IMG/VR virus record: IMGVR_UViG_3300050120_000126
Span: 1-64,000 of that record
Reading direction: 5' to 3' (one strand)
Source of the DNA: a virus
Length of the DNA stretch: 64,000 nucleotides
The first letter of the stretch is position 1. Every line of letters starts with the position of its first letter. Made by a program: the position numbers and the translations under genes. The notes below the pieces were generated by a model that worked only from the letters and a program-made list of their open reading frames with translations, did not search any database and was not told where the DNA came from. This document shows, in pieces, positions 2,514 through 58,478 of the stretch.

Positions 2514-3308
2514 ATGACTCAAACGATTGAAGAATTACGGCAAGACATCTCATCTAAGCAAGCAGAGCTTTCGGCCGCACTCGCCAAGTTGGATGCATCG
2601 GTAACTGACGAGAATTTCGTACCGGTACCGGAAATGCAGTTTGAACTCGAAGACGGCACGATCCATACCGAGCCGGCATTCCTCATTGGCGCGTATCTGA
2701 ACAGCAAAGGCGACGCCGGCCAGATTGTGATCGATCCGAAGCGCATGCCATGGACCGGCATCAATTATTACGAGGCCGATGAAATTTGTGAAGCCAATGG
2801 CTTGCCGCAAGTCACTGAAACGCAATGGCTCGCGATGGCGCTCAACGCATACCACGTCGCTGAAAATTGGACCGGCGGCGCAGTTGGCGAAGGTTCGATG
2901 TTCCAGGGCATCCGCAACGGCGGCGGCGCGCGGCCGGGCGAATACGTCCCGACCGATAAAACCGAACAGCGCTGGTTGCGGCTGTCGAACGGCTCCCGGA
3001 TCTGCGATATCAACGGCAACGTCCTTCAATGGGTGAAAGACAACCTGCACGGTGACAAAAAAGGATTGATCGCCAAGAAGATCACATTGGCCTCGCCATC
3101 GATCGCACTGGCGCCGCATCCATCGCTGACTAAGGGCATGGGCTGGCGGCCAAGCCAGGGTGTGGATTGGTCCAGCCGTGCGCTCCTCCGAGGCGGCTAC
3201 TGGGGCTCGGGCGACTATGCCGGCGCCTTCCGTCTCGGCGTCTGGAATCCCGTCACCCGCGGCGACAGTCTCGGCTTCCGCAGCACCAAGCCTAGCTCGG
3301 GTCTCTGA
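2514..3308 (+). CDS. DGR target protein 1, C-type-lectin/FGE-like fold
   Basis: 264 residues; the start is preceded by AAGGAG. The N-terminus (residues 1-30) is a short helix. The rest resembles the formylglycine-generating-enzyme/C-type-lectin fold used by DGR variable proteins: an ENWTGGAVGEGSM motif near 115, ICDINGNVLQW near 165, and a C-terminal RALLRGGYW...LGFR block. Residues ~219-256 are encoded by variable repeat 1. Compared with the other two targets, the stop after the shared STK end is lost and five residues (PSSGL) are added. It lies on the + strand, about 46 kb from the template within the window, in an early operon between a DUF559-like nuclease operon and small regulators. It is expected to bind a variable ligand; no tail-attachment or export signal is visible. 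Confidence 0.85.
   Translation: MTQTIEELRQDISSKQAELSAALAKLDASVTDENFVPVPEMQFELEDGTIHTEPAFLIGAYLNSKGDAGQIVIDPKRMPWTGINYYEADEICEANGLPQVTETQWLAMALNAYHVAENWTGGAVGEGSMFQGIRNGGGARPGEYVPTDKTEQRWLRLSNGSRICDINGNVLQWVKDNLHGDKKGLIAKKITLASPSIALAPHPSLTKGMGWRPSQGVDWSSRALLRGGYWGSGDYAGAFRLGVWNPVTRGDSLGFRSTKPSSGL
3170..3283 (+). repeat. DGR variable repeat 1 (VR1)
   Basis: 114 bp aligned without gaps to the template repeat at 49132-49245. I count about 21 differences. About 19 are at template adenines; the other two (T to C, G to C) are silent. The conserved 3' end GGCTTCCGCAG matches the template end and would be the initiation-of-mutagenic-homing site. Confidence 0.9.
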
Positions 3309-5403: not shown

Positions 5404-5823
5404 TTAGACTGCGACAAGTTCGACGTTCTTGCCGAGTGCGCCAAGCGCCTCTTCAATACGATCGATCTTAGTCGTATGGTGTAGATCGATAAGGCGATTA
5501 ACTTCTTGCTTTGTTGTTTCAAGGCGAGCGGCAAGATCAACCGGCCGCATCTGTTGGGCCAGCATCTCATTAAGCAGCATCACTTTTGCGGCGATGCTAA
5601 GAGGAAGAGCGATAAGACGCTCGCCTTTTTTAGCTTTAGATGGTGGAGGCACAGGGCGTTTATCCTCGAAATAGAAGTCCATCGAGGTTAAGAGTGCATC
5701 AGCAGCCATATCGAGTGCCTCCTCTTCGGTATCGCCCTGGGTAATTGCCTCTGGGATATCGCGGAAAGTAACGACAAAGCCACCGGCTTCGTGATCTGGT
5801 TCAAAGTGAGCTGGATATTTCAT
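5404..5823 (-). CDS. hicB: HicB-type antitoxin
   Basis: 139 residues. The N-terminal half is the HicB domain (YPAHFEPDHEAGGFVVTFRD with IPEAITQGDTEEEALDMA). The C-terminal half holds a helix-turn-helix (MRPVDLAARLETTKQEVNRL) that would bind the operator. HicB neutralises HicA and represses the pair. It lies downstream of hicA on the same strand, separated by a hairpin. The module is transcribed against the phage late direction. Confidence 0.9.
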   Translation of the reverse strand: MKYPAHFEPDHEAGGFVVTFRDIPEAITQGDTEEEALDMAADALLTSMDFYFEDKRPVPPPSKAKKGERLIALPLSIAAKVMLLNEMLAQQMRPVDLAARLETTKQEVNRLIDLHHTTKIDRIEEALGALGKNVELVAV

Positions 5824-5923: not shown

Positions 5924-6100
5924 TCACTTTAGTCCAAGTTGTTTTTTTATCCCCTCCACAGTTCCTTTTTTCATATCTTGGGAACCGTGTCGGCCTATGA
6001 TGGTTTGCTTGCCGTTCAGTGTGACTTTCATGTGTTTCGCACCATCCTCGAAAGTCGCACCTTGCTGCTTTAACCATCTGACAAGCTCGCTTTGTTTCAC
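5924..6100 (-). CDS. hicA: HicA-type mRNA interferase toxin
   Basis: 58 residues from the GTG at 6100, which follows an AAAGGAGG ribosome-binding site. The longer frame up to 6163 runs into the promoter and is not used. SELVRWLKQQGA, a GAKHMKVTL segment with the catalytic His, and GRHGSQDMKKGTVEGIKKQ are the HicA double-stranded-RNA-binding-like fold. It degrades mRNA when free of HicB. Confidence 0.9.
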   Translation of the reverse strand: MKQSELVRWLKQQGATFEDGAKHMKVTLNGKQTIIGRHGSQDMKKGTVEGIKKQLGLK

Positions 6101-6132
6101 CGCACCTCCTTTGTTTGTTTCGATGTATGTAT

Positions 6133-6187
6133 AGTAATCAAATATGATTACTGACGCAAGCACTTTCGGTAACTATATTTGATTACT
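6133..6187 (-). promoter_or_regulatory. hicAB operator/promoter region
   Basis: 6133-6152 is a perfect 20-bp palindrome, AGTAATCA-AATA-TGATTACT. A second copy of the half-site (AGTAATCAAATATAGTT on the minus strand) lies at 6171-6187. Two sites upstream of hicA fit cooperative HicB autorepression. Confidence 0.6.
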
Positions 6188-31363: not shown

Positions 31364-33913
31364 ATGGGCGCAATTTCCCCGCGGATTCAGCCGCAGGGAC
31401 TTCAACAGATTGATTATCTCAATCCGCTTGCGGCTATGTTCTGGCTGCCGAGTGGAAATCAATTCTACGAAGTCCATACCAAAAAGCCATGTTTCCGTGC
31501 GGCCGGCTCAAAAGCGATCGGCCCAGCGCCAGCCGGTGTAGGGCAAGCGTTCGTTGCTGATGGCGCGACCTCGTTTGCCGTCGCCACACCGGTAACACTC
31601 ACTGGATCTTTCACGATATCGATTCTCGCAGCGTCGTCTGCGAGTACCGCATCGATGGCGCTTGGCGATACCACATCGTCAAACAATTTTCTATGGATTG
31701 ATGATGGTAGTTCCGAGGGGCGCTGGCGCATAAGCGGAGGCGATTTCCCGTTTACAAATAGCAATTTCACTGCCATGGCGGTTTATACCGTGTCAGTGTT
31801 GCCGCCTGCGAATGGTGGCAGCTATCAGATCATCATGTACAAAAATGGTGTTCAGGTCGGAGTAGGCAGTTCCGGTACCGTTCCAAGTTTTGTATTTAAT
31901 ACCATCGGAGACGGCTTCACGGCTGGATCATTCCGAATGGCGACCGGCGGTTTTATCGCTGGTGTTTATGCGCATCCAACGCATGGCATGACAGCGACCG
32001 AAGTTGCGGATCATGCGGCTAATTTCTTCGGTACGCTACAGGAAGATTCTTATAGCCTATCGAGCTTTTTGAAATCGCCTGCAAGTACCATTTCGGCTTC
32101 GCTCGGAATCGAAACCAGTGCTGGCCTCCCAGCATCGATCGGCTCTGCAACAACGATTGCCGCATCGGTTGCCACGGTATTCGACGCAGGTCTGAGTGCG
32201 TCTATCACGGCCGCGACGATCACGATCACGTCGCCTACGCAATATCAGTGTTTTCAACAGAACGTTGCGACACATACTGCCAACTTTACGATATCCGGTA
32301 CATATACCGGCACGCCGACCAGCATTCAGGCAAGTTTCAATGGCAGCGCATGGCAGACCATCAGCGCATCACCGACCGGAGGTAATTATTCCGGGACATT
32401 CACCGGTGCAGCGCGGGGGCAAGGTACGCTTTCCGTACGATTTTCGAATGATACAAGCACCAATTCAGCGGTAACGTTAATCACCGTTGGCGACGGTATT
32501 TTGGTCTACGGCCAAAGTAATAATGTTGGGCATGCCGTCCAGTACGTCCCGCCATCGAACGCCGTTTTTCAGGCAATGGAATACAACGTACTTGGCAATT
32601 TCACGCCGCTTTTTGAATCGGCATCGACGGGATTGCAATTCAGCGATCGGTTCACGACTAGCGGCGCCGGGCCGAGTGCTCAATGTTCAGCTATGAATCA
32701 AAGTACGGTCGATGGTCAGGGTTCATACTTTGGCGCACTGGCCACGCTGATTATGGCAACCGGAACACCGGTGTTTTTCATTCCTTGCGCCGTGGGAAGT
32801 ACACTAGTGTCTGACTGGCAGCCAGGTACGGTCCATAACAATCCAGCAACCCTTTATGGCGCCGCTGTTACTCGCGCACTACTGCACCCCTGTCGATATG
32901 CTGTTTGGTGGCAAGGTGAAAGTGATGCTACTGCCGGCACGTCGACAGCCACATACATTTCGCTGTTGAACAACGTAGTTAATAATTTCTTTGCAGACAC
33001 CGGCCTTAAAACTGTCGTCTATCAAATTAACTATGCTGGTGGCGCGTATTGCACATTGGCTCAATACAACACAATCGTTGCTGGGCAGCAGAATGTTCAA
33101 CTGACAAATGCAAACGCATGTGTCGGCCCGAATATGAATGGCCTTTGGACAGGAAATGTCCATTACCAAACATCAGCCGATATCGCTGCAGTTTCACAGA
33201 CAGCTTTCAATGTATTGGGGGCGCTGTTCTATGGCGGAACCGAATTCATTACGAATTCGCCAGGACAGGTAACTGATGTCGGGCAGGGCGCATCAATCAA
33301 TGTCATACCAACGACGGTATCAGCATCTACCGGCATTGAAATTGCTGCCGGCCTACCGGCAATGGTTAGTTTTACCAATACGATTAACTCCGCATTGGGC
33401 TTGGTTTTAGACGCTGGGCTAGGGGCATCTATCGTCTTGCCGACCGTAGTCGCATCAGCAATCGGCCAAATAGTCGATGCAGGACTTGAAGCAACGATAG
33501 TTGATACGCCATTTGCCGGCACTGTTGTTAATGCATCCGTAGGTTCGGTTACGTTCCTCGGCCTGCCATTTACTCAGCAACCCTATACAGCTCCGCCATC
33601 AAACCGCACCTATGTCGTTGATAGTCGATCGAGAATCCCGATTTTCGACAAATCGCCATTGGCGGACTTAGATTATGCGTTTGACTGGACGGCGTATTTG
33701 GCCGAAGTGTCAGATTCATTCTCTGGCACGCCGACCATTGCGGTTTCGGATGGACTGACGCTGCAAGCCGGGCCTGCTGTTCACGGTGGAAAAGTCGTTT
33801 TCTGGCTAGAGGGAGGTACAGCGGGCGTCTATTATTTTGTCACTTGCACTATTTCTACCCAGGGAGGGCGAATAGATAGTCGCGTAATAAAAGTATGGTG
33901 CCACGTTATTTAA
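31364..33913 (+). CDS. Tail spike/fibre with SASA-type carbohydrate esterase domain
   Basis: 849 residues. Residues ~60-220 look like a LamG-type sandwich. Residues ~380-640 form an SGNH/SASA esterase: GQSNNVGH near 383 (nucleophile Ser), WWQGESD near 515, GNVHY near 596. The esterase is flanked on both sides by short repeats of the form ASxGIExxAGLPA and DAGLxASI. The C-terminal ~100 residues (RSRIPIFDKSPLADLDY; WLEGGTAGVYYFVTC) are a fibre end or adaptor. It probably deacetylates surface polysaccharide during adsorption. Confidence 0.75.
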   Translation: MGAISPRIQPQGLQQIDYLNPLAAMFWLPSGNQFYEVHTKKPCFRAAGSKAIGPAPAGVGQAFVADGATSFAVATPVTLTGSFTISILAASSASTASMALGDTTSSNNFLWIDDGSSEGRWRISGGDFPFTNSNFTAMAVYTVSVLPPANGGSYQIIMYKNGVQVGVGSSGTVPSFVFNTIGDGFTAGSFRMATGGFIAGVYAHPTHGMTATEVADHAANFFGTLQEDSYSLSSFLKSPASTISASLGIETSAGLPASIGSATTIAASVATVFDAGLSASITAATITITSPTQYQCFQQNVATHTANFTISGTYTGTPTSIQASFNGSAWQTISASPTGGNYSGTFTGAARGQGTLSVRFSNDTSTNSAVTLITVGDGILVYGQSNNVGHAVQYVPPSNAVFQAMEYNVLGNFTPLFESASTGLQFSDRFTTSGAGPSAQCSAMNQSTVDGQGSYFGALATLIMATGTPVFFIPCAVGSTLVSDWQPGTVHNNPATLYGAAVTRALLHPCRYAVWWQGESDATAGTSTATYISLLNNVVNNFFADTGLKTVVYQINYAGGAYCTLAQYNTIVAGQQNVQLTNANACVGPNMNGLWTGNVHYQTSADIAAVSQTAFNVLGALFYGGTEFITNSPGQVTDVGQGASINVIPTTVSASTGIEIAAGLPAMVSFTNTINSALGLVLDAGLGASIVLPTVVASAIGQIVDAGLEATIVDTPFAGTVVNASVGSVTFLGLPFTQQPYTAPPSNRTYVVDSRSRIPIFDKSPLADLDYAFDWTAYLAEVSDSFSGTPTIAVSDGLTLQAGPAVHGGKVVFWLEGGTAGVYYFVTCTISTQGGRIDSRVIKVWCHVI

Positions 33914-45279: not shown

Positions 45280-47289
45280 TCATGCCGCCCTCACAATCTC
45301 GCGCTCATGCGCGAAATTTGCCTGGATCAGCGCGCGCGCCATCGGCGGGCATACTGAATTCCCGCACATACGAACTTGGGCGCTTTTGGTGAGGGTCAGC
45401 CCTTGCTCTGGCTTGTCGCCGATGATGTAGGTATCTGGGAAGCCTTGCGCCCGGTACAGTTCGCGCGGCGCCAGCATGCGCAGGCCGATATCCACTATCT
45501 GATAATCTTGGCCGTGAATGGTCACCAAACCGAACCGGTCCTTGCTGGTCACGGTCCTTAACGGATCAGTGAGGTTATCCGCTTCCTTTTCATTCCCGTA
45601 GTAGCTAAGCAGGAATGCGCGCACCTCGGCGTGATGAAGACCGCCCGCGCTAATCGTGCCCAGAGGTTCGTCTGTTGCAGCCGCATTGCTCGTACCGCGC
45701 AACTTAATCAGATTGCTGGTGACCAACGCTGACTTACCACCGCCCCCGGCCGTAACCGTACCAAGTGGTGCGTCAGCGGCATGGCCGACGCTCTGAGTCA
45801 TGTCACGCTGGATGTGCGCTGTTACGATTCCGAGCGCGTGCGGCGCGCCGGCGGGATTTTCTTTCGGGCCGGCCGTGATGGTCGGCAGTGGGCTGGCCAT
45901 GTCGCTGCCGGTCGCGCCGGTACGGAATTTGGTAATGTGCGCAGAGACCATGCTGAAATGGCCACCCTTGACCTGGGCGCAGATCGTGCGCAGCGGTTCA
46001 TCGACCGGCATATTCCGTTGATTGCTGGCATTGGCATGTTCAGTCAGGAACGCGGTAACTACGGCGCCATCGGCTTTCGAGGTAATCGTCGCCAATGGTT
46101 CATCTGCGCCACGCGGGCGACTCTGGCCAGCGCGGCCGCCGACGCCAGCGAGCAGCGCAGAAACCAGCGCATGCCTGTTTTCGGTCGGAATGGTATTGAT
46201 CGGCTCGTCCGGATTTTGGCCCCGGACATCCGAAGCCCGTTTGTCGCTGTAGTACGGGCTGATATAAGCCGTCGCGATTGCTTTCTCGCCGCGATTGGCG
46301 CCCGTTATCGTGCGGAACGGCTCGTCGATCGATTCGGACCGATCACCGCCTTGGTGGGTGACCGGCACTATCGATGGCAGCACTATCGCACGGTGATTCT
46401 CGGCGGTCAGCGTGCCGAACGGTTGCGTCGTCGGTACCGGCTTGCCGGAATAGATCGGACCTCCTTGACCGATAATGAACGGATTGGCCGCTATGACGAC
46501 ATACCGCATGATTCCCTTGGCGATGCGTCGGAGCGTAGCCGGCGCCAATGGCCGGGAGCGTTCAAATATGGATGGACAGGGGATAGACCAGTCGATACAT
46601 TCGGCGGCAGTGCGATAAGGCAGCAACTTACCGGCTTTGACACCAATGCTGTCCGGCGCACCATGCGTCGGCGCCGGGAAGGTAATCGCAATCCCGTCAC
46701 GCCGCGCGACGAGGAAGAATCGCTTCCGGATGGTAGGGGTGTCATAGTCGCAGCCGCGCATCTCGCGATAATCGACTTCATAGCCGTGGTCGCGCAGTTG
46801 ACGCACGAAACTTTCGAACGTCTTGCCCTTTTTTGCAGGATCTGGCTTCGCGTTCCCATCGGCATCAATGAGTAGTGGCCCCCAAGTTTTGAACTCTTCG
46901 ACGTTTTCGAGCATGATGACGCGCGGCTTGCACTTTGCAGCCCAGCGTAGCGTTACCCACGCGAGGCCACGAATCTTCTTCTCTACAGGCTTACCGCCCT
47001 TAGCCTTACTGAAATGCTTGCAATCTGGCGACAGCCAGACAAGGCCGACCGGCTGATTGCCCGTGACTTTGATCGGGTCAACATCCCAGACAGACTCGCA
47101 AAGATGCTTCGTATGCGGATGGTTAGCGGCATGCATGGCCAGTGCTTCCGGATCATGATTGATCGCGATATCGACCGGACGGCCGAATGCCCATTCCAGC
47201 CCAGTGCTGGTGCCGCCACCGCCGGCGAAGTTGTCTATGATTAATTCATTGCCCAGGTCAAGCGGCAAACTCATCAGATCGCGCTTCAT
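45280..47289 (-). CDS. DNA (cytosine-5) methyltransferase with repeated central domain
   Basis: 669 residues. Motif I FAGGGG at 21-26, catalytic SPDC at 87-90 (Cys90), ENV at 128-130, and C-terminal ELYRAQGFPD and MCGNSVCPP motifs. Between ~280 and ~610 lie nine imperfect repeats of ~35-40 residues with the pattern DEPLxTIT...HALV, in the region expected to recognise the target. It would protect phage DNA from host restriction or mark it. Its ATG overlaps the stop of the clamp-like gene. Confidence 0.9.
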   Translation of the reverse strand: MKRDLMSLPLDLGNELIIDNFAGGGGTSTGLEWAFGRPVDIAINHDPEALAMHAANHPHTKHLCESVWDVDPIKVTGNQPVGLVWLSPDCKHFSKAKGGKPVEKKIRGLAWVTLRWAAKCKPRVIMLENVEEFKTWGPLLIDADGNAKPDPAKKGKTFESFVRQLRDHGYEVDYREMRGCDYDTPTIRKRFFLVARRDGIAITFPAPTHGAPDSIGVKAGKLLPYRTAAECIDWSIPCPSIFERSRPLAPATLRRIAKGIMRYVVIAANPFIIGQGGPIYSGKPVPTTQPFGTLTAENHRAIVLPSIVPVTHQGGDRSESIDEPFRTITGANRGEKAIATAYISPYYSDKRASDVRGQNPDEPINTIPTENRHALVSALLAGVGGRAGQSRPRGADEPLATITSKADGAVVTAFLTEHANASNQRNMPVDEPLRTICAQVKGGHFSMVSAHITKFRTGATGSDMASPLPTITAGPKENPAGAPHALGIVTAHIQRDMTQSVGHAADAPLGTVTAGGGGKSALVTSNLIKLRGTSNAAATDEPLGTISAGGLHHAEVRAFLLSYYGNEKEADNLTDPLRTVTSKDRFGLVTIHGQDYQIVDIGLRMLAPRELYRAQGFPDTYIIGDKPEQGLTLTKSAQVRMCGNSVCPPMARALIQANFAHEREIVRAA

Positions 47290-47978
47290 CAGATATCGTC
47301 CAGCGTTTCAACGGCGCCAGGCAGCGGGAACCACGTCGGCAAGGCGTCGAAACTCTCGCGCAACTTCATAATTCCGCCGAAGCATTCCAGTTCGCCGATG
47401 CCGCCGAGAACGAATGTCAGCGGGCTATCGGCATCGCGGGTGAAAAACCTGATGGATTCGCCGAAGTTCTTGCCGATCGATAAGGCATCATTTAAATAGC
47501 GCGGATTCACGGCGCCGGAAATTCCTTCCTTGTAGCCGATGGTGCTGGCGACGCGCTCGATGCGCGGGAAGACGCCTTCGATCAATGAATTGCCAGGCTG
47601 AATAAACAAAGGCTCGGCAACCGGGCCGGAAATCATTGCGTTGCCATTCGACATCACGTCCAGCGTGTGCTTGGCGTTGGCAGAATGTTTCAGCGCATCC
47701 TTGCTGATCGCGACGATAATTTCCTTTTCCACGAAACCGTGCGGATCGCGGACCACGATGTAACGATGACCATTGGTGGCAACGATCATTGCGGAATCGT
47801 CATCAAGCGGCCGGATGTTGATGCCGCACAGGTAATACCGGATATCCTGCTGAGCCATAAACGGATATACCAATTTCATTGCGACGGCATTGATGCGAGC
47901 GATCAGATGCGCGCCATCAGTCGATTCGACTTCTGTTCCTTCGATTGCAGATTGTTCCGGCTTGGTATTGGCGTTCAT
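47289..47978 (-). CDS. Beta-sliding-clamp-like protein
   Basis: 229 residues. IRYYLCG at 46-52, ATNGHRY at 67-73 and LIEGVFPRI at 132-140 match DnaN domains 2-3. The length allows only two clamp domains, so a full ring would need more subunits, or the protein may act as a clamp decoy or partial clamp. It is coupled by ATGA to the RT and by TGATG to the methyltransferase. Whether it helps replication or retrohoming is unknown. Confidence 0.7.
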   Translation of the reverse strand: MNANTKPEQSAIEGTEVESTDGAHLIARINAVAMKLVYPFMAQQDIRYYLCGINIRPLDDDSAMIVATNGHRYIVVRDPHGFVEKEIIVAISKDALKHSANAKHTLDVMSNGNAMISGPVAEPLFIQPGNSLIEGVFPRIERVASTIGYKEGISGAVNPRYLNDALSIGKNFGESIRFFTRDADSPLTFVLGGIGELECFGGIMKLRESFDALPTWFPLPGAVETLDDI

Positions 47979-49009
47979 TGGATGCCTTTATAGATGGTTG
48001 ATCCGGTGTGTGAAAACATGGCTTGATACGAAGCGAGGGATTCAGTGTTGTCGTAACCTCGCTGTTCGTGCTGGCGCAGGCGATAGTGGAAGCGGCCGCG
48101 CACATAGGCACCGGCCGAGATGTGGTTCGGCCAAACTGTGTAACCGAGGAATGGCACGCCGGCAGCCGTCGGCGCCAGGCGGATCTTGAAAGGGTGAATC
48201 GTCAGGCCCATGGCTGCGAGGTATTCAACGATCAGATCCTGCAGCGCCAGCAGCTCGGCGCGGGAGGATGCGAAAATGGAAATGTCATCGACGTAGCGCA
48301 GATAGAAGCGCACCAGCAAGACTTCCTTGACCCAGTGATCGAAGGCATTCAGGAAAATGTTTGCGAACAGTTGTGACGGCAGGTTCCCGATTGGCATGCC
48401 CTTGGCCAAGGTCGTGCGATACATGCTATCCGCCGCGAATAGGTCATCGAATGAACTATCAGTCTGAAATGAATCGATAAGGTCGATGATCAGGCGCCGA
48501 ACGTCGTTGTCGCCGATATGGCGCAGCACAGCTTGTTTTAAAAGCGCATGATTGACCGAATAGAAGTATTTCGAGATGTCGAGTTGCAATACCCATTTCG
48601 CTTCCGGCGACCGGGCGAACTGGGCCATGCGCTGGACTGCCGCATGCGTGCCACGGCCGGGCAGGTTGCCGTAGGTGTCATGAATGAAACGCTTCTGCCA
48701 GATCGGCAGCATGTACCGATACAGCAGCCAATGCACGATCCGGTCTTTCGTCGGCGCGCAGACCACCAGGCGATGTTTTTTTTCGCGGACGATGAATGTC
48801 TTGTAAGGGCCAAATGCGTACTGCCGGGCGCGCAGCCGGTTTTGTATCGTAACCAGGTGACGCAGCGGGTCCGCACCGAAGCGCAGCACGCGCAGGTTAT
48901 TGGACTTGTTTTTACGCGCCTTGCCCCAGCACTGAAACAGGTTAGGCAGGCTTGTCAGGCGGTAGAACTCAGAATTAGTGCCGCATCCCGCCGCAGCACA
49001 CGTGCACAC
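47975..49009 (-). CDS. DGR reverse transcriptase
   Basis: About 344 residues if it starts at GTG 49009; the frame is open to 49273, but that part is the template repeat read out of its target frame. Conserved blocks are LQLDISKYFYSVNH (first catalytic Asp), GMPIGNLPSQLFANIFLN (the SQ form of motif 4 typical of DGR RTs) and LRYVDDISIFA (YVDD at 48284-48295). The end (GVPFLGYTVWPNHI) fits too. It copies template RNA with errors at adenines. No good ribosome-binding site is visible at the GTG. The stop overlaps the clamp-like start. Confidence 0.92.
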   Translation of the reverse strand: MCTCAAAGCGTNSEFYRLTSLPNLFQCWGKARKNKSNNLRVLRFGADPLRHLVTIQNRLRARQYAFGPYKTFIVREKKHRLVVCAPTKDRIVHWLLYRYMLPIWQKRFIHDTYGNLPGRGTHAAVQRMAQFARSPEAKWVLQLDISKYFYSVNHALLKQAVLRHIGDNDVRRLIIDLIDSFQTDSSFDDLFAADSMYRTTLAKGMPIGNLPSQLFANIFLNAFDHWVKEVLLVRFYLRYVDDISIFASSRAELLALQDLIVEYLAAMGLTIHPFKIRLAPTAAGVPFLGYTVWPNHISAGAYVRGRFHYRLRQHEQRGYDNTESLASYQAMFSHTGSTIYKGIQ

Positions 49010-49091
49010 CGCGGCGGTTTCCGGTTTGGCGCAAGGCCGTGCTTTCGGGAGCGAGCCCCCAGGAGATTTTCGACCAAGAATGAATAGCTCT

Positions 49092-49109
49092 TTGTGAGCA
49101 AGCTCACAA
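49092..49109 (-). other. 8-bp inverted repeat downstream of the template
   Basis: TTGTGAGC-AA-GCTCACAA is a perfect inverted repeat 23 bases after the template end and before the RT start, so it would form a hairpin in the template RNA. Confidence 0.6.
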
Positions 49110-49131
49110 TCTGAACGTGATATTTTTGGGT

Positions 49132-49245
49132 CTGCGGAAGCCGATATTGTCGTTCCGGTTGTCGGGATTCCAGTTGTTGAGATTGAAAGCGCCGGCATTG
49201 TCGTCCGAGTTCCAGTAGCCGCCTCGGATGAGCGCATTGCTGGAC
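49132..49245 (-). repeat. DGR template repeat (TR)
   Basis: 114 bp in the gap between accessory and RT genes. In the target reading frame it has ten AAC/AAT codons, the usual adenine-rich design. All three variable repeats align without gaps. The 3' flank differs from the VR flanks right after CCGCAG (ACCCAAAA versus CACCAAG), as expected for IMH* versus IMH. Confidence 0.93.
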
Positions 49246-49269
49246 TTTTTAGAAAATCCCCCTTGGTAC

Positions 49270-50142
49270 TCATGCTGGCTCCGCAGTCAGGGTTGGACTT
49301 ACGGTAGCCTTGAGCGCGCGAATCACGCCGCCCAATAAATTTCCGATTTCAACCGCCAACGAAACGCGATGCTCGAAGGCGATCTTCAGTTTCTTTAATG
49401 TCGGTACCAGGCTCAGATAGTGTTTTAGCTGATCGACATCGGCCGACAGGCTGTTGAGCAACGCCTGTTTGTTGTCTTCCAGGCCATACGCGAAAATATG
49501 GTGCATTAGGCTGTACATCACGGTCCGGACGTTCTCGCCCCAGATAGCGCGGGCGTCGCGTGGCAACCGCATCAGATCCAGTGTCAGTTGCTTATCGAGT
49601 TCTTCGGCCTTGGCCTTCAAAACAAATTCGGATGTGTTTGTTGACCGTAAAATCTTGTTTTCGCCGGCCCGGTTCAGTTTTTTGAACTGGCGCAGCTCAT
49701 TGATTATTTTTCCGACGATATCGTCCGGAACCGAAGATAAGAGCGAGTCTTTCACGTCGCCTTGGGGCGATACGTAGACGTTCCGATCCGTTTCATGTGT
49801 GCCGAGCGAAACAACGTAGGGCGTGTTGTAGTCGTTGATCATCGACCAGAGGCGGCGTTTGTAACCGGCCAATGGAAAACCGACCACGATATGCGGATTA
49901 TTTGCCGGGCCCTTCAATTGCATCTTGTAATGCTTGAGATTGTGCAGGACGTGCGCGGTCCGGTTATAACCTTGCAACCACCCGCCCGACTGAACAAAGA
50001 TTAAATGCATGGGATATTTCTCTTCAAGTTTTGCCGCGATTTCCGCGACCTTATCGGCTTGCCCTAGGCCGACGTCGATACCTTTAAAAGAAGTGATGCC
50101 GAACTTGGCCGCTTCCTCGGGTGTTGGGAGTTCGATTTGCAT
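49270..50142 (-). CDS. DGR accessory protein: MutS-I-like domain plus Avd-like helices
   Basis: 290 residues between target 2 and the template. Residues ~31-115 follow MutS domain I in order: AKLEEKYPMHLIFVQSGGW (like the KxxYPDxLLFFRMGDFY strand), a helix, then IVVGFPLAGYKRRL and NTPYVVS (like PMAGVPYHA and VAIC). Residues ~185-278 are helical and end EIGNLLGGVIRAL, close to the (I/L)GxLLGGW end of Avd four-helix bundles. Avd binds the RT and template RNA, and MutS-like accessory proteins have been described for some DGRs (from memory). The combination is inferred, not proven. Confidence 0.65.
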   Translation of the reverse strand: MQIELPTPEEAAKFGITSFKGIDVGLGQADKVAEIAAKLEEKYPMHLIFVQSGGWLQGYNRTAHVLHNLKHYKMQLKGPANNPHIVVGFPLAGYKRRLWSMINDYNTPYVVSLGTHETDRNVYVSPQGDVKDSLLSSVPDDIVGKIINELRQFKKLNRAGENKILRSTNTSEFVLKAKAEELDKQLTLDLMRLPRDARAIWGENVRTVMYSLMHHIFAYGLEDNKQALLNSLSADVDQLKHYLSLVPTLKKLKIAFEHRVSLAVEIGNLLGGVIRALKATVSPTLTAEPA

Positions 50143-50176
50143 ATCGCCTACTTTTTATTGTTATTAAGAACGGACC

Positions 50177-50192
50177 GCCGCTTCGCAGCGAC
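50177..50192 (-). other. Hairpin downstream of VR2
   Basis: GTCGCT-gcga-AGCGGC on the minus strand, a 6-bp stem (one G-T) with a GNRA loop, about 40 bases after VR2; positionally equivalent to the hairpins after VR1 and VR3. Confidence 0.45.
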
Positions 50193-50221
50193 CCGTGACC
50201 AGAAACCAGAAGCCTGAATTT

Positions 50222-51154
50222 TTACTTGGTGCTGCGGAAGCCGATACCGTCGTGCCGGCCGTCGGGATACCAGAGGTAGAGACGGAAAGCGCCGGCATAG
50301 TCGCCCGAGCCCCAGCAGCCGCCCCGGACGAGCGCACGGCCGGACCAATCTGAACCAGCATCCGGATACCATCCGACACCTTTGGTATAAGACGGCGCCG
50401 GCGCGCTGGTGATGGATGGTGAAGCGGCGGCGAATGCCGATTTGACGATGCCGCTTTCATCGCCTTGGATATCGTCACGAACCCACGAATACGCGTTGCC
50501 CGCAAAGTGATATATGCGATCGCCAGTTGACAGGACCAGCCAGGTACGTTCATCTGCATCTTCGGGCTCGTACGTGCCGGATTGCGCTTCGTCGACGTTA
50601 TCTTTACGAACGCCCTGGTACATCTTGCCTTCGCCGACTACGCCGGAAATCCAGTTCGCTGCCTGCTCGGATAAATCCAGCGCCACGGATAGCCATTGCG
50701 ATTCTGTAATCAGGTTGTAGCCAGCCGATTTACATGCGGCGATAGATTCGGCGTAGTTGATATCGACCCATGGCGTACCGTCAGCGGTCGACTGCACGGT
50801 GCCGGCGACGCTACGCGACGATGGGTATTGCGCGATCTTGAACGACGGGACAAAGAGGCCATTTGACAGCGTGCGATCCGGCACCGTAATGAAAAGGCTG
50901 TTCTTTTGCACGTCGTCGGCCAGGATGGCGCGCAGCTCGGCGGCAAGCACCGGCTGAGTGATAGCGCAGGAATCGGCATATGCGGCGATAGCGGGCATCG
51001 CATGCTGGTCGGTCGTGATGTTCAGTGGGAAATACTGATCGTTTTCGTGTTTTCCGCCTGGCGCGCTGCTGCCGTCGGTACGCGTGACGGTGAATTTCTT
51101 AAATAAGCCAACATCGGCTTGGTCGAGCGGTTTTGCTTCGGTGACTGCATTCAT
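50222..51154 (-). CDS. DGR target protein 2
   Basis: 310 residues, AGGAGGG upstream of the start. Residues ~35-80 (NDQYFPLNITTDQHAMPAI, ADSCAITQPVLAAELRAIL) resemble a common small phage protein, so the lectin part appears to be joined to a resident early protein. Residues ~100-308 are FGE/C-type-lectin-like (ANWISGVVGEGKMYQG; IYHFAGNAYSWVRDD). Residues ~270-308 come from VR2. It lies 79 bases upstream of the accessory gene and is the cis target of this DGR. No signal peptide. Confidence 0.88.
   Translation of the reverse strand: MNAVTEAKPLDQADVGLFKKFTVTRTDGSSAPGGKHENDQYFPLNITTDQHAMPAIAAYADSCAITQPVLAAELRAILADDVQKNSLFITVPDRTLSNGLFVPSFKIAQYPSSRSVAGTVQSTADGTPWVDINYAESIAACKSAGYNLITESQWLSVALDLSEQAANWISGVVGEGKMYQGVRKDNVDEAQSGTYEPEDADERTWLVLSTGDRIYHFAGNAYSWVRDDIQGDESGIVKSAFAAASPSITSAPAPSYTKGVGWYPDAGSDWSGRALVRGGCWGSGDYAGAFRLYLWYPDGRHDGIGFRSTK
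50232..50345 (-). repeat. DGR variable repeat 2 (VR2)
   Basis: 114 bp. By hand alignment there are about 21 differences from the template, every one at a template adenine. It is the clearest sign of adenine-specific diversification in the window. Confidence 0.93.
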
Positions 51155-55713: not shown

Positions 55714-56610
55714 TTACTTGGTGCTGCGGAAGCCGATAAAGTCGTACCGGCCGTCGGGATACCAGCGGTAGAGACAGAAAGCGCCGGCACGGTCGTCCGA
55801 GTACCAGTAGCCGCCCCGGAAGAGCGCACTGCCGGACCAATGCAGCGGGCCGGTATAGATGTAGCCCATGCCTTTTTTCATCGAAGGGAAGGGCGCCAAA
55901 GTCAGGTAAGGTGAGTCGGCAGGAATGGATCCGCTGACGACACCGTTTTCATCGCCATGGATGTCGTCAAACAGGTGTTCGTACAGATGGCCGGACCAGT
56001 CGTAAATGCGATGACCGTTTGTGAGTTCATGCCAGCGGCGTTCAGCCGGATCGGAAGATTCGTAGTCGTTAGCGACTGGGCCAGATACAGTGCCTTTATG
56101 CAGACCACGGATCAATTCACCTTCGCCAACTTTTCCGCCGGTCCAGTTCTTGTCGACGCTGGCGATGTTCAGCGAGATAGCGATTGCTTGTGAGCCGCGA
56201 GTGATCTTGCGACCAGCTTTATTGCAAGCCTCAATCGCCTCTTCCTGGCTGATGTTATTTTTAGGCTTTTCGGTCGTTGTGCAGATCGCGTTGCCGTCCG
56301 AATCGATCGAGCCGAGGTATTGCTCGATATGAAATGCAGGAACGTGGATCGTCTTGTCGCCCCATTTAAAGGACGAGGCCGGAACGGGAATGAAACCGGG
56401 TTCAACCAGATCAAGATTCAAGGCGCTGGAAAACTTTGGCGAACACTTCAGGATTTCGCCATCGTTGTCGGTATCGATAATGATGAAGTCGCCATTGCGG
56501 TCTTCAAAGCACTCAAGGCCATGGCGCAGTGTTTCTTTGAACAGGCCAGACACCGCCAGCGCGCCGACGTTGACTGCAAAATGATCGATCTTGGTTGCTA
56601 TGGCTTTCAT
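55714..56610 (-). CDS. DGR target protein 3
   Basis: 298 residues. The N-terminal ~70 residues (HFAVNVGALAVSGLFKETL; GDFIIIDTDNDGEIL) are unrelated to targets 1 and 2. Residues ~75-296 are FGE/C-type-lectin-like (DKNWTGGKVGEGELIRGL; IYDWSGHLYEHLFDDIHG). Residues ~258-296 come from VR3. It lies near the start of the left early operon. No export signal. Confidence 0.87.
   Translation of the reverse strand: MKAIATKIDHFAVNVGALAVSGLFKETLRHGLECFEDRNGDFIIIDTDNDGEILKCSPKFSSALNLDLVEPGFIPVPASSFKWGDKTIHVPAFHIEQYLGSIDSDGNAICTTTEKPKNNISQEEAIEACNKAGRKITRGSQAIAISLNIASVDKNWTGGKVGEGELIRGLHKGTVSGPVANDYESSDPAERRWHELTNGHRIYDWSGHLYEHLFDDIHGDENGVVSGSIPADSPYLTLAPFPSMKKGMGYIYTGPLHWSGSALFRGGYWYSDDRAGAFCLYRWYPDGRYDFIGFRSTK
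55724..55837 (-). repeat. DGR variable repeat 3 (VR3)
   Basis: 114 bp. By hand alignment there are about 18 differences from the template, all at template adenines. Followed by CACCAAGTAA, the common IMH end plus stop. Confidence 0.93.
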
Positions 56611-57311: not shown

Positions 57312-57449
57312 TGAAATAAATCAACAAAAGTGTAAATAATGCGAATTGCCATAGACGACAGGCGCAAAAAAAACCGCCGAAGCGGTGAGGGGAAGCGTAG
57401 GATTGCGAGAAAATTACGGCAGGCGAAAAGCTGCGACAAAAGGCTAGAT

Positions 57450-58478
57450 GTGACACATTACAAAAACAACTTCGATTTTCTTAGGCTTACGGCAGCCACC
57501 CTGGTTTTAATCAGTCATCAGCGGGCTTTAATGGGTGAGACTGACTTCGGGTTGAATGAGCGTTTTTCGCTCGGAGTGCTTGGTGTTTGTATATTTTTTA
57601 TCGTGAGCGGCTATCTTGTCACGCAAAGTTGGTTGCGCGATCCGAACGTCTTCCGATTTCTGATAAAGCGTTTTCTGCGTATTTGGCCGGGCTTATTCGT
57701 GGTGACTTGTATTGCTGCGTTAGTAGTCGGCCCAATTGTTACGGGTCTTGATATTAAGAGCTATTTCTCATCGCTAGAATTGCTAAAATATTTTTCCAGC
57801 CTTCGACTGACGCACATGGCGTTCTATCTGCCAGATGCATTTGCTCATAATCCGTTTCCGAAGGCGGTAAATGGTTCGTTATGGACGATTCCGCTTGAGG
57901 TGCATTGGTATTTCGTACTTGCGATTGCAGGCATCATAGGGGCGTTGCGCTGGCGTTGGCTGGCTGTCTGCGGTGTTATTGGCGCTGCCATTTACCATTT
58001 TGGTATCTACAACGGCAAAGCAGATGCGCTTCAAAATCTGACGCTAGAGTATGGGCTATTCTTTCTTGCCGGCGTACTGTTGCAACTGTTTCGAGATTGG
58101 TCGGCTGCTCGACAGAACATTTTGGTCGCTGGATCCTTTATTGTCGGCGCCATCATCTTCTTAGCCGGATGGGACGTTCTAGGTGTATTGGCGGCGCTGC
58201 CATGCCTGGTGATATTTACAGGGGATGCGTCCACACCGGTTCTGAGGCGTTTTGGTCGATTTGGCGACCTCTCCTACGGCGTCTATATCTATGCGTTCCT
58301 CGTACAACAAATTCTGGTGTGGAAATTTGGAACATCAGGCCCATTCCTTCTTCATTTGCTTGCTACAGCGATCATAACGTTTGGTTGCGCGTGGCTATCA
58401 TGGCATTTAATAGAAAAGAGGGCGCTTTCATTCAAACCGTTCTCAAAAAATCCACAGACTCGGCTCGCTCAAGCGTAG
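57450..58478 (+). CDS. Acyltransferase 3 family membrane protein (O-acetylase-like)
   Basis: About 342 residues from GTG 57450, which has AAAGG upstream; ATG 57339 would add a basic 37-residue leader. NNFDFLRLTAATLVLISHQ carries the Arg and His of the family, followed by about ten membrane helices and SLWTIPLEVHWYF. OafA/GumF-type enzymes acetylate O-antigen or exopolysaccharide. In a prophage this means serotype conversion and blocking of superinfection. It is divergent from PL and likely expressed in the lysogen. Confidence 0.85.
   Translation: MTHYKNNFDFLRLTAATLVLISHQRALMGETDFGLNERFSLGVLGVCIFFIVSGYLVTQSWLRDPNVFRFLIKRFLRIWPGLFVVTCIAALVVGPIVTGLDIKSYFSSLELLKYFSSLRLTHMAFYLPDAFAHNPFPKAVNGSLWTIPLEVHWYFVLAIAGIIGALRWRWLAVCGVIGAAIYHFGIYNGKADALQNLTLEYGLFFLAGVLLQLFRDWSAARQNILVAGSFIVGAIIFLAGWDVLGVLAALPCLVIFTGDASTPVLRRFGRFGDLSYGVYIYAFLVQQILVWKFGTSGPFLLHLLATAIITFGCAWLSWHLIEKRALSFKPFSKNPQTRLAQA

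Follow-up and report, generated by a model that had tools for sequence, protein, structure and literature searches.

The window analysed here, 64,000 nucleotides of a virus record (IMG/VR IMGVR_UViG_3300050120_000126, positions 1 to 64,000), carries a complete diversity-generating retroelement (DGR), with one template repeat (TR) and three paralogous target genes. Judged from its sequence and those of its relatives, the most unusual feature of this element is the position of the template within a translated frame: in this clade, the TR and the RNA scaffold that follows it are very probably part of the translated start of the next gene, and not an untranslated gap. The explanation that would best cover the whole, and in which we place high confidence, is a complete DGR whose translated template leader couples the accessory gene to the downstream gene, in an RNA that may serve either as mRNA or as template. 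A first-pass annotation of this DNA had placed the reverse transcriptase (RT), the accessory gene and the template together, which they are; however, the TR does not simply lie beside the RT, as was then thought, since the RT open reading frame (47975-49273) contains it. The features concerned are the following.

47975..49273, minus strand: leader plus reverse transcriptase ORF, 432 aa, with the RT core from about residue 101
48980..49131, minus strand: spacer between TR and RT core, a structured RNA (by alignment fold) also open in the RT frame
49132..49245, minus strand: template repeat (TR), 114 bp with 30 A (gapless repeat comparison)
49271..49273, minus strand: ATG of the leader/RT ORF, overlapping the accessory stop as ATGA (by sequence; also in 67 distinct relatives)
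49279..49282, minus strand: SD-like GGAG (by sequence)
49270..50142, minus strand: accessory gene, 290 aa, with an N-terminal part like MutS domain I and a C-terminal bAvd four-helix bundle (domain and fold matches)
50222..51154, minus strand: target gene 2, 310 aa, FGE-sulfatase/C-type-lectin-like (below the Pfam cut-off), VR at its 3′ end
50232..50345, minus strand: variable repeat VR2 (gapless against TR)
55714..56610, minus strand: target gene 3, 298 aa, a paralogue (homology to target 1, 41% identity, and phrog_9572), VR at its 3′ end
55724..55837, minus strand: VR3 (gapless against TR)
2514..3308, plus strand: target gene 1, 264 aa, FGE-sulfatase-like (above the Pfam cut-off)
3170..3283, plus strand: VR1 (gapless against TR)

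The repeats had been compared by hand in the first-pass annotation, and a program alignment agrees with its one 114-bp template and three gapless variable repeats, down to the exact counts (19 adenine changes plus two silent ones in VR1, 21 in VR2, 18 in VR3). A repeat search that made no assumption of a DGR returned the identical set of four copies. With respect to the TR, VR1 is changed at 19/30 adenines and 2/84 other bases (Fisher p 4.5e-12), VR2 at 21/30 and 0/84 (p 3.3e-16), and VR3 at 18/30 and 0/84 (p 2.2e-13), and 26 of the 30 template adenines are altered in at least one VR. An even spread of substitutions over all four bases, named beforehand as the sign of a mistaken call, is not what is found: the changes in VR2 and VR3 fall on template adenines alone, and those of VR1 do so except for two. 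These two differences from the present TR (T58C and G91C, both silent) are the only ones at other bases among the three repeats; rewriting may be less frequent in VR1 than in the other two repeats, or the TR may have changed since. The VRs end in CTTCCGCAG-CACCAAG and the TR in CTTCCGCAG-ACCCAAA, so that IMH and IMH* (GCACCAAG versus GACCCAAA) differ for all three VRs, as in known DGRs. A hairpin search 3′ of the VRs gave short stems of 4-5 bp alone, at unequal distances among the three. The TR itself translates as SSNALIRGGYWNSDDNAGAFNLNNWNPDNRNDNIGFR in the frame of the targets and as PAMRSSEAATGTRTTMPALSISTTGIPTTGTTISASA in the frame of the RT.

The RT of the window matches PF00078 (RVT_1, E 4e-25) and the brt of phage BPP-1 (33% identity), and its SQ (motif 4) and YVDD motifs are invariant in 28 relatives. 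The accessory protein matches bAvd with an E of 2e-4, which is under the Pfam cut-off, and bAvd is found in 26 of 26 relatives; its structural model has fold matches to S23/Avd-like bundles, with a TM to the target of about 0.8. Pfam MutS_I is detected in 7/26 of the relatives' accessory proteins (best E 4e-4), the window protein itself being without a match, and a PDB comparison of the window model (pLDDT 70) has MutS-family proteins in all of its first 17 places (prob 0.99-1, best E 1.3e-3). The predicted fold includes the MutS domain I by which the MSL type of accessory is recognized, this being the name given to MutS-like DGR accessories (PF01624) in PMC10053308. MSL and the window protein share MutS domain I, and the latter also has the bAvd bundle. 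An attractive, if speculative, role for such a protein would be the handling of the mismatched cDNA/VR duplex.

The evidence for translation of the template starts with its frame. In the window, the RT ORF runs from 49273 through TR and spacer to a core at about 48979. The same ATGA start at the accessory stop, with a frame open through TR and spacer, is common to all 67 distinct leaders that have a downstream gene (58 fused to the RT and nine to another gene), and their first 93 codons hold no stop. Anti-SD pairing before the leader ATG has a median of -5.3 kcal/mol, versus -1.7 in control windows (p 3e-36, although the 67 leaders are related and not 67 independent events, and p-values overstate independence). 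All 31 viral loci have this start and open frame, and in their spacers the RT frame contains no stops, versus 38 and 16 for the other two frames. For 39 distinct sequences placed on a tree, the RT frame of the spacer was expected to gain 14.4 stops; a single gain was inferred, at an internal node, and the sequences themselves contain none, their other two frames holding 49 and 14. Part of this avoidance could come from the GC content and the structure of the RNA: in the spacer, the third frame too is fairly stop-poor. Nine different lengths occur between ATG and core, which require at least 12 length changes, every one a multiple of three, and the last codon of the accessory gene varies, yet ends in A in 39/39 sequences. 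Among the RT-fused forms, no conserved start codon was found near the RT core.

The product of this frame looks far less constrained than the frame itself. In the RT frame, pN/pS is 0.85 for the spacer and 1.05 for the TR versus 0.31 for the RT core, while the TR in the target frame reaches 0.50, which places the constraint there instead. AlphaFold predicts leader residues 1-99, rich in Ser, Thr and Arg, as disordered (pLDDT about 25), and the RT core mostly above 80. In all likelihood the amino acids of the leader count for little, and what is retained would be the open frame together with the RNA structure. The latter has a consensus of 39 pairs over 31 spacers, 21 of them with two-sided changes; 96.6% of the alignment cells are paired, and two-sided changes number 109 versus 29.7 in shuffles. 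When the structure was slid along the same alignment as a control, 33-41% were paired. The 3′ end of the TR pairs with the invariant spacer motifs TTGGTCGA and AAAGC. Folded as a single sequence, the window spacer gives a z of -0.7, which is not significant, and its structure is visible from the alignment alone. This covariation and pairing across spacers indicate that the nucleotides matter, unlike the amino acids, and strong covariation and strict frame retention coincide in one 150-nt stretch.

A second line of evidence comes from nine distinct loci where another gene is fused in frame to the leader, and the RT has a start of its own that overlaps the stop of this cargo gene. The junction lies directly past the last spacer helix. 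The cargo genes encode an N6/N4 methyltransferase, two D12 methyltransferases, a phage Dam, a PAPS-reductase family protein and a protein with an H-NS C-terminal domain, whereas the remaining three have no Pfam match (one is PAPS-reductase-like by eye). Four of the leaders closely resemble each other (98% among three of them, 91% for the fourth), and their fused genes are different. All nine loci have A-directed VR changes, so an RT that starts without the leader is found with A-changed VRs, which argues that the leader peptide is dispensable for the RT. Moreover, in-frame fusion to such varied genes suggests that the leader stays in frame with any gene placed after it, as a portable dual-coded template RNA. 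These loci had been considered as counterexamples with a distant TR, and were rejected as such once recognized as leader fusions. An exchange slot between spacer and RT, occupied by methyltransferase, PAPS-reductase-like and H-NS-like genes, can be seen at L051:7988-8998, L052:7251-8348 and L180:4831-5610, and likewise at L189:4852-5916, L259:2772-4001, L260:2904-4031 and L050:9001-9540. Such exchangeable junction genes amount to natural swap mutants.

How this element might work can be proposed from BPP-1 together with the anatomy just described. The RT and the MutS-I/Avd accessory protein would copy the template RNA to cDNA, placing random bases opposite its adenines, and this cDNA would replace the 3′ ends of the three paralogous C-type-lectin-like genes; if BPP-1 is a guide, cDNA priming would occur in the spacer and homing at the IMH. 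Ribosomes would start at the ATGA, cross TR and spacer in a frame other than that of the targets, and enter the RT or another gene. The accessory and downstream genes would be translationally coupled across the template, leaving no untranslated gap, and this coupling may be the reason for the arrangement. One and the same RNA would then be an mRNA, or a template once RT and accessory protein bind the spacer. A bolder version, which we put forward tentatively and consider possible but doubtful, would make the template RNA portable and obligatorily translated, with translation and template use mutually exclusive, spacer binding repressing the RT and setting the mutation rate, and the junction acting as an exchange slot for DNA-modification genes.

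The A-specific exchange, the three targets, the translated-leader anatomy and the conserved RNA fold are all demonstrated by the comparison of sequences, but the reason for it may be a template/mRNA switch or the avoidance of polarity, which both go with the same anatomy. Translation of the leader could serve polarity avoidance alone, with ribosomes blocking Rho-dependent termination before the RT and no template/mRNA switch. We regard this as a serious possibility, somewhat short of probable: it accounts for an open frame without amino-acid constraint and for any fused downstream gene, and a search between accessory gene and RT gave no sigma-70-like promoter, which is weak evidence in its favour, whereas most DGRs of the same gene order do without an open frame and have an SD ahead of the RT. 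Much less probable is an artefact of annotation, in which the frame of the long ORF across the TR would be open by chance in GC-rich DNA and the RT would start at its core as in BPP-1. A leader with scarcely constrained amino acids and predicted disorder would suit it, and in BPP-1 the brt frame is likewise open across the TR with no start near the Avd stop, which we keep as a caveat on openness alone as evidence. Nonetheless, chance openness was rejected on the evidence of start, SD, stops and phase, since the ATGA is invariant, the SD site is present, length changes preserve the frame and about 14 expected stop gains are absent; RT-fused forms lack a conserved core start, and the cargo fusions are in frame in 9/9 cases. 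Among distant DGRs with a TR similarly far upstream, 10 of 11 have 1-8 in-frame stops there, and in the phage DGRs of Vibrio, Pseudomonas (Bise), Chromohalobacter and Bacillus the frames are closed, mostly with an SD before the RT. More improbable still is a role of the leader as a functional N-terminal domain of the RT, such as a tail that binds RNA, which its fusion to the RT in 58 distinct loci and its richness in Ser, Thr and Arg might suggest, given that nine distinct loci with intact TR/VR pairs carry it on unrelated genes and start the RT without it. A conserved protein domain was therefore rejected on these cargo fusions, a pN/pS near 1 and a predicted disorder without any fold.

The preferred reading, that of a translated template leader, concerns a DGR that seems to be alive. 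RT scans recovered 32 viral relatives and 15 cellular ones (59-70% identity), plus a larger viral set, and an accessory search of viral contigs gave matches with an alignment as query and none with a single sequence. For further hosts, genome samples of 369 and 300 yielded just the centre genome each, and such nearly empty samples suggest that the element is rare. In the DNA examined, relatives have from one to three VRs, and one of them carries, like the window, a third, distal target on the opposite strand, in which 17 A and no other bases are changed over 100 nt. Three targets, which the first-pass annotation had deemed a rich arrangement, are thus ordinary: besides these relatives, a survey reported 2-4 VRs in 24 of 155 DGRs (PMC3521204), and up to eight per DGR have been cited (PMC10743442). 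Two loci, L025 and L027, have RT regions 99.7% identical and identical TRs, yet in each of their two target pairs the VRs disagree at 15/24 template adenines and match at every other site. Other close pairs had comparable targets in 4 of the 6 examined, with 13-22 A differences and 0-4 others. A lack of any VR diversity in populations, which had been set out as grounds against the DGR, is contradicted by these pairs, and such diversity at template adenines between near-identical relatives gives good support to the view, drawn from natural variation in close relatives, that the DGRs of this clade diversify in nature. Together with the A-directed changes, it upholds the call of a complete DGR with one template and three targets. 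That the DGR of the window phage is dead or residual, as two fixed silent differences in VR1 might hint, is highly unlikely with no non-A change among 84 positions in either VR2 or VR3, intact RT motifs and relatives that diverge at TR adenines.

Among known systems, BPP-1 (mtd-avd-TR-spacer-brt) shares with the window phage the gene order, the A-specific TR/VR changes, the IMH/IMH* difference, an Avd-type bundle and C-type-lectin targets (PMC12875486). Both have a structured spacer, of 144 nt in BPP-1 and about 150 in the window phage; that of BPP-1 folds and recruits the RT complex (PMC12875486), and the pairing of TR 3′ end and spacer in the window clade recalls it. However, BPP-1 has one tail-fibre target and a 128-aa Avd, whereas the window phage has three early-region targets and a 290-aa MutS-I/Avd protein; mtd adjoins tail genes, which the window targets do not. 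The BPP-1 RT begins after the spacer, with no start near the Avd stop, while in the window phage TR and spacer lie inside the downstream ORF. The multi-VR DGRs of Betaproteobacteria (three VRs in Collimonas, four in Ralstonia solanacearum CMR15 and two in Burkholderia; PMC3521204) share paralogous FGE-fold targets with one TR. The scan of that survey extended over about 11 kb around the RT; distal targets were mentioned for hosts only, and the leader was left out. Group 3 DGRs, where the TR overlaps the RT ORF, likewise place it within the ORF annotated as RT, at the 5′ end. This is an annotation-based class, taken as a sign that the arrangement is irrelevant, whereas in the window clade the start overlap, the SD, stop avoidance, phase-preserving lengths, RNA covariation and cargo fusions indicate that the arrangement is maintained. 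A probable parallel case is offered by the Aeromonas phages phiARM81mr (L293:4731-6017) and phiWae15 (L289:4726-5001), in which an ORF starts 2 nt past the Avd stop and spans TR and spacer, being fused to the RT in the former and ending just before it in the latter; these DGRs differ in having another RT lineage (about 30% identity) and an ordinary Avd.

The literature already includes DGRs with several targets, with FGE-fold targets, with an MSL accessory and with a TR that overlaps an annotated RT ORF (PMC3521204, PMC4891356, PMC10053308, PMC10743442). For a TR as a conserved translated leader, and for exchangeable genes fused to it, we found no description, a provisional statement given our incomplete coverage of DGR surveys. 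Separate transcription of the template has been argued (PMC3521204), and the work on BPP-1 places the template between two genes. How a DGR splits one transcript between mRNA and template is a conflict that could be tested directly here, in culturable lysogens. Candidate strains with the cassette are Duganella sp. BJB476, Solimicrobium silvestre S20-91, Thauera butanivorans NBRC 103042 and, for the H-NS-like fusion, Aromatoleum toluclasticum ATCC 700605. Moreover, a single phage DGR with three paralogues on two arms is well suited to testing the effects of target orientation (PMC12875486).

The virus record has 66,406 bp, and its ends (1-127 and 66280-66406) are identical over 127 bp; this exact terminal overlap shows that the genome is a 66,279-bp circle, probably complete, though classed as linear. 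VR1 does lie on the other strand, as first noticed, but the distance of about 46 kb then given between VR1 and TR is an artefact of opening the circle, on which they are about 20 kb apart. Genes for an integrase, large terminase, portal, tail sheath, baseplate J and tail collar point to a temperate contractile-tailed phage, whose host is likely a betaproteobacterium, as the cellular relatives are Burkholderiales, Rhodocyclales and Nitrosomonadales. SSB, exonuclease and Erf genes share the leftward early operon in which the DGR cassette sits; target 1 follows a replication-initiator-like gene in the rightward arm, and none of the three targets is near tail genes. GC skew gave no clear replication origin; from the initiator-like gene (53-901), which is absent from 12 relatives, all three targets would point away.

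Several other genes of the window deserve mention. The one at 47289-47978 (minus strand), which overlaps the RT stop, resembles a DNA polymerase clamp (processivity factor) as well as a phrog named RusA-like. By eye, 5404-5823 and 5924-6163 (minus strand) look like a HicB antitoxin/HicA toxin pair. An O-acetyltransferase akin to O-antigen acetylases is encoded at 57339-58478 (plus strand) and is likely a lysogenic conversion gene. Finally, the tail protein at 31364-33913 (plus strand) combines a sialic-acid-esterase (SASA) domain with a C-terminal domain named for a podophage fibre adaptor, in a phage that is itself contractile-tailed.
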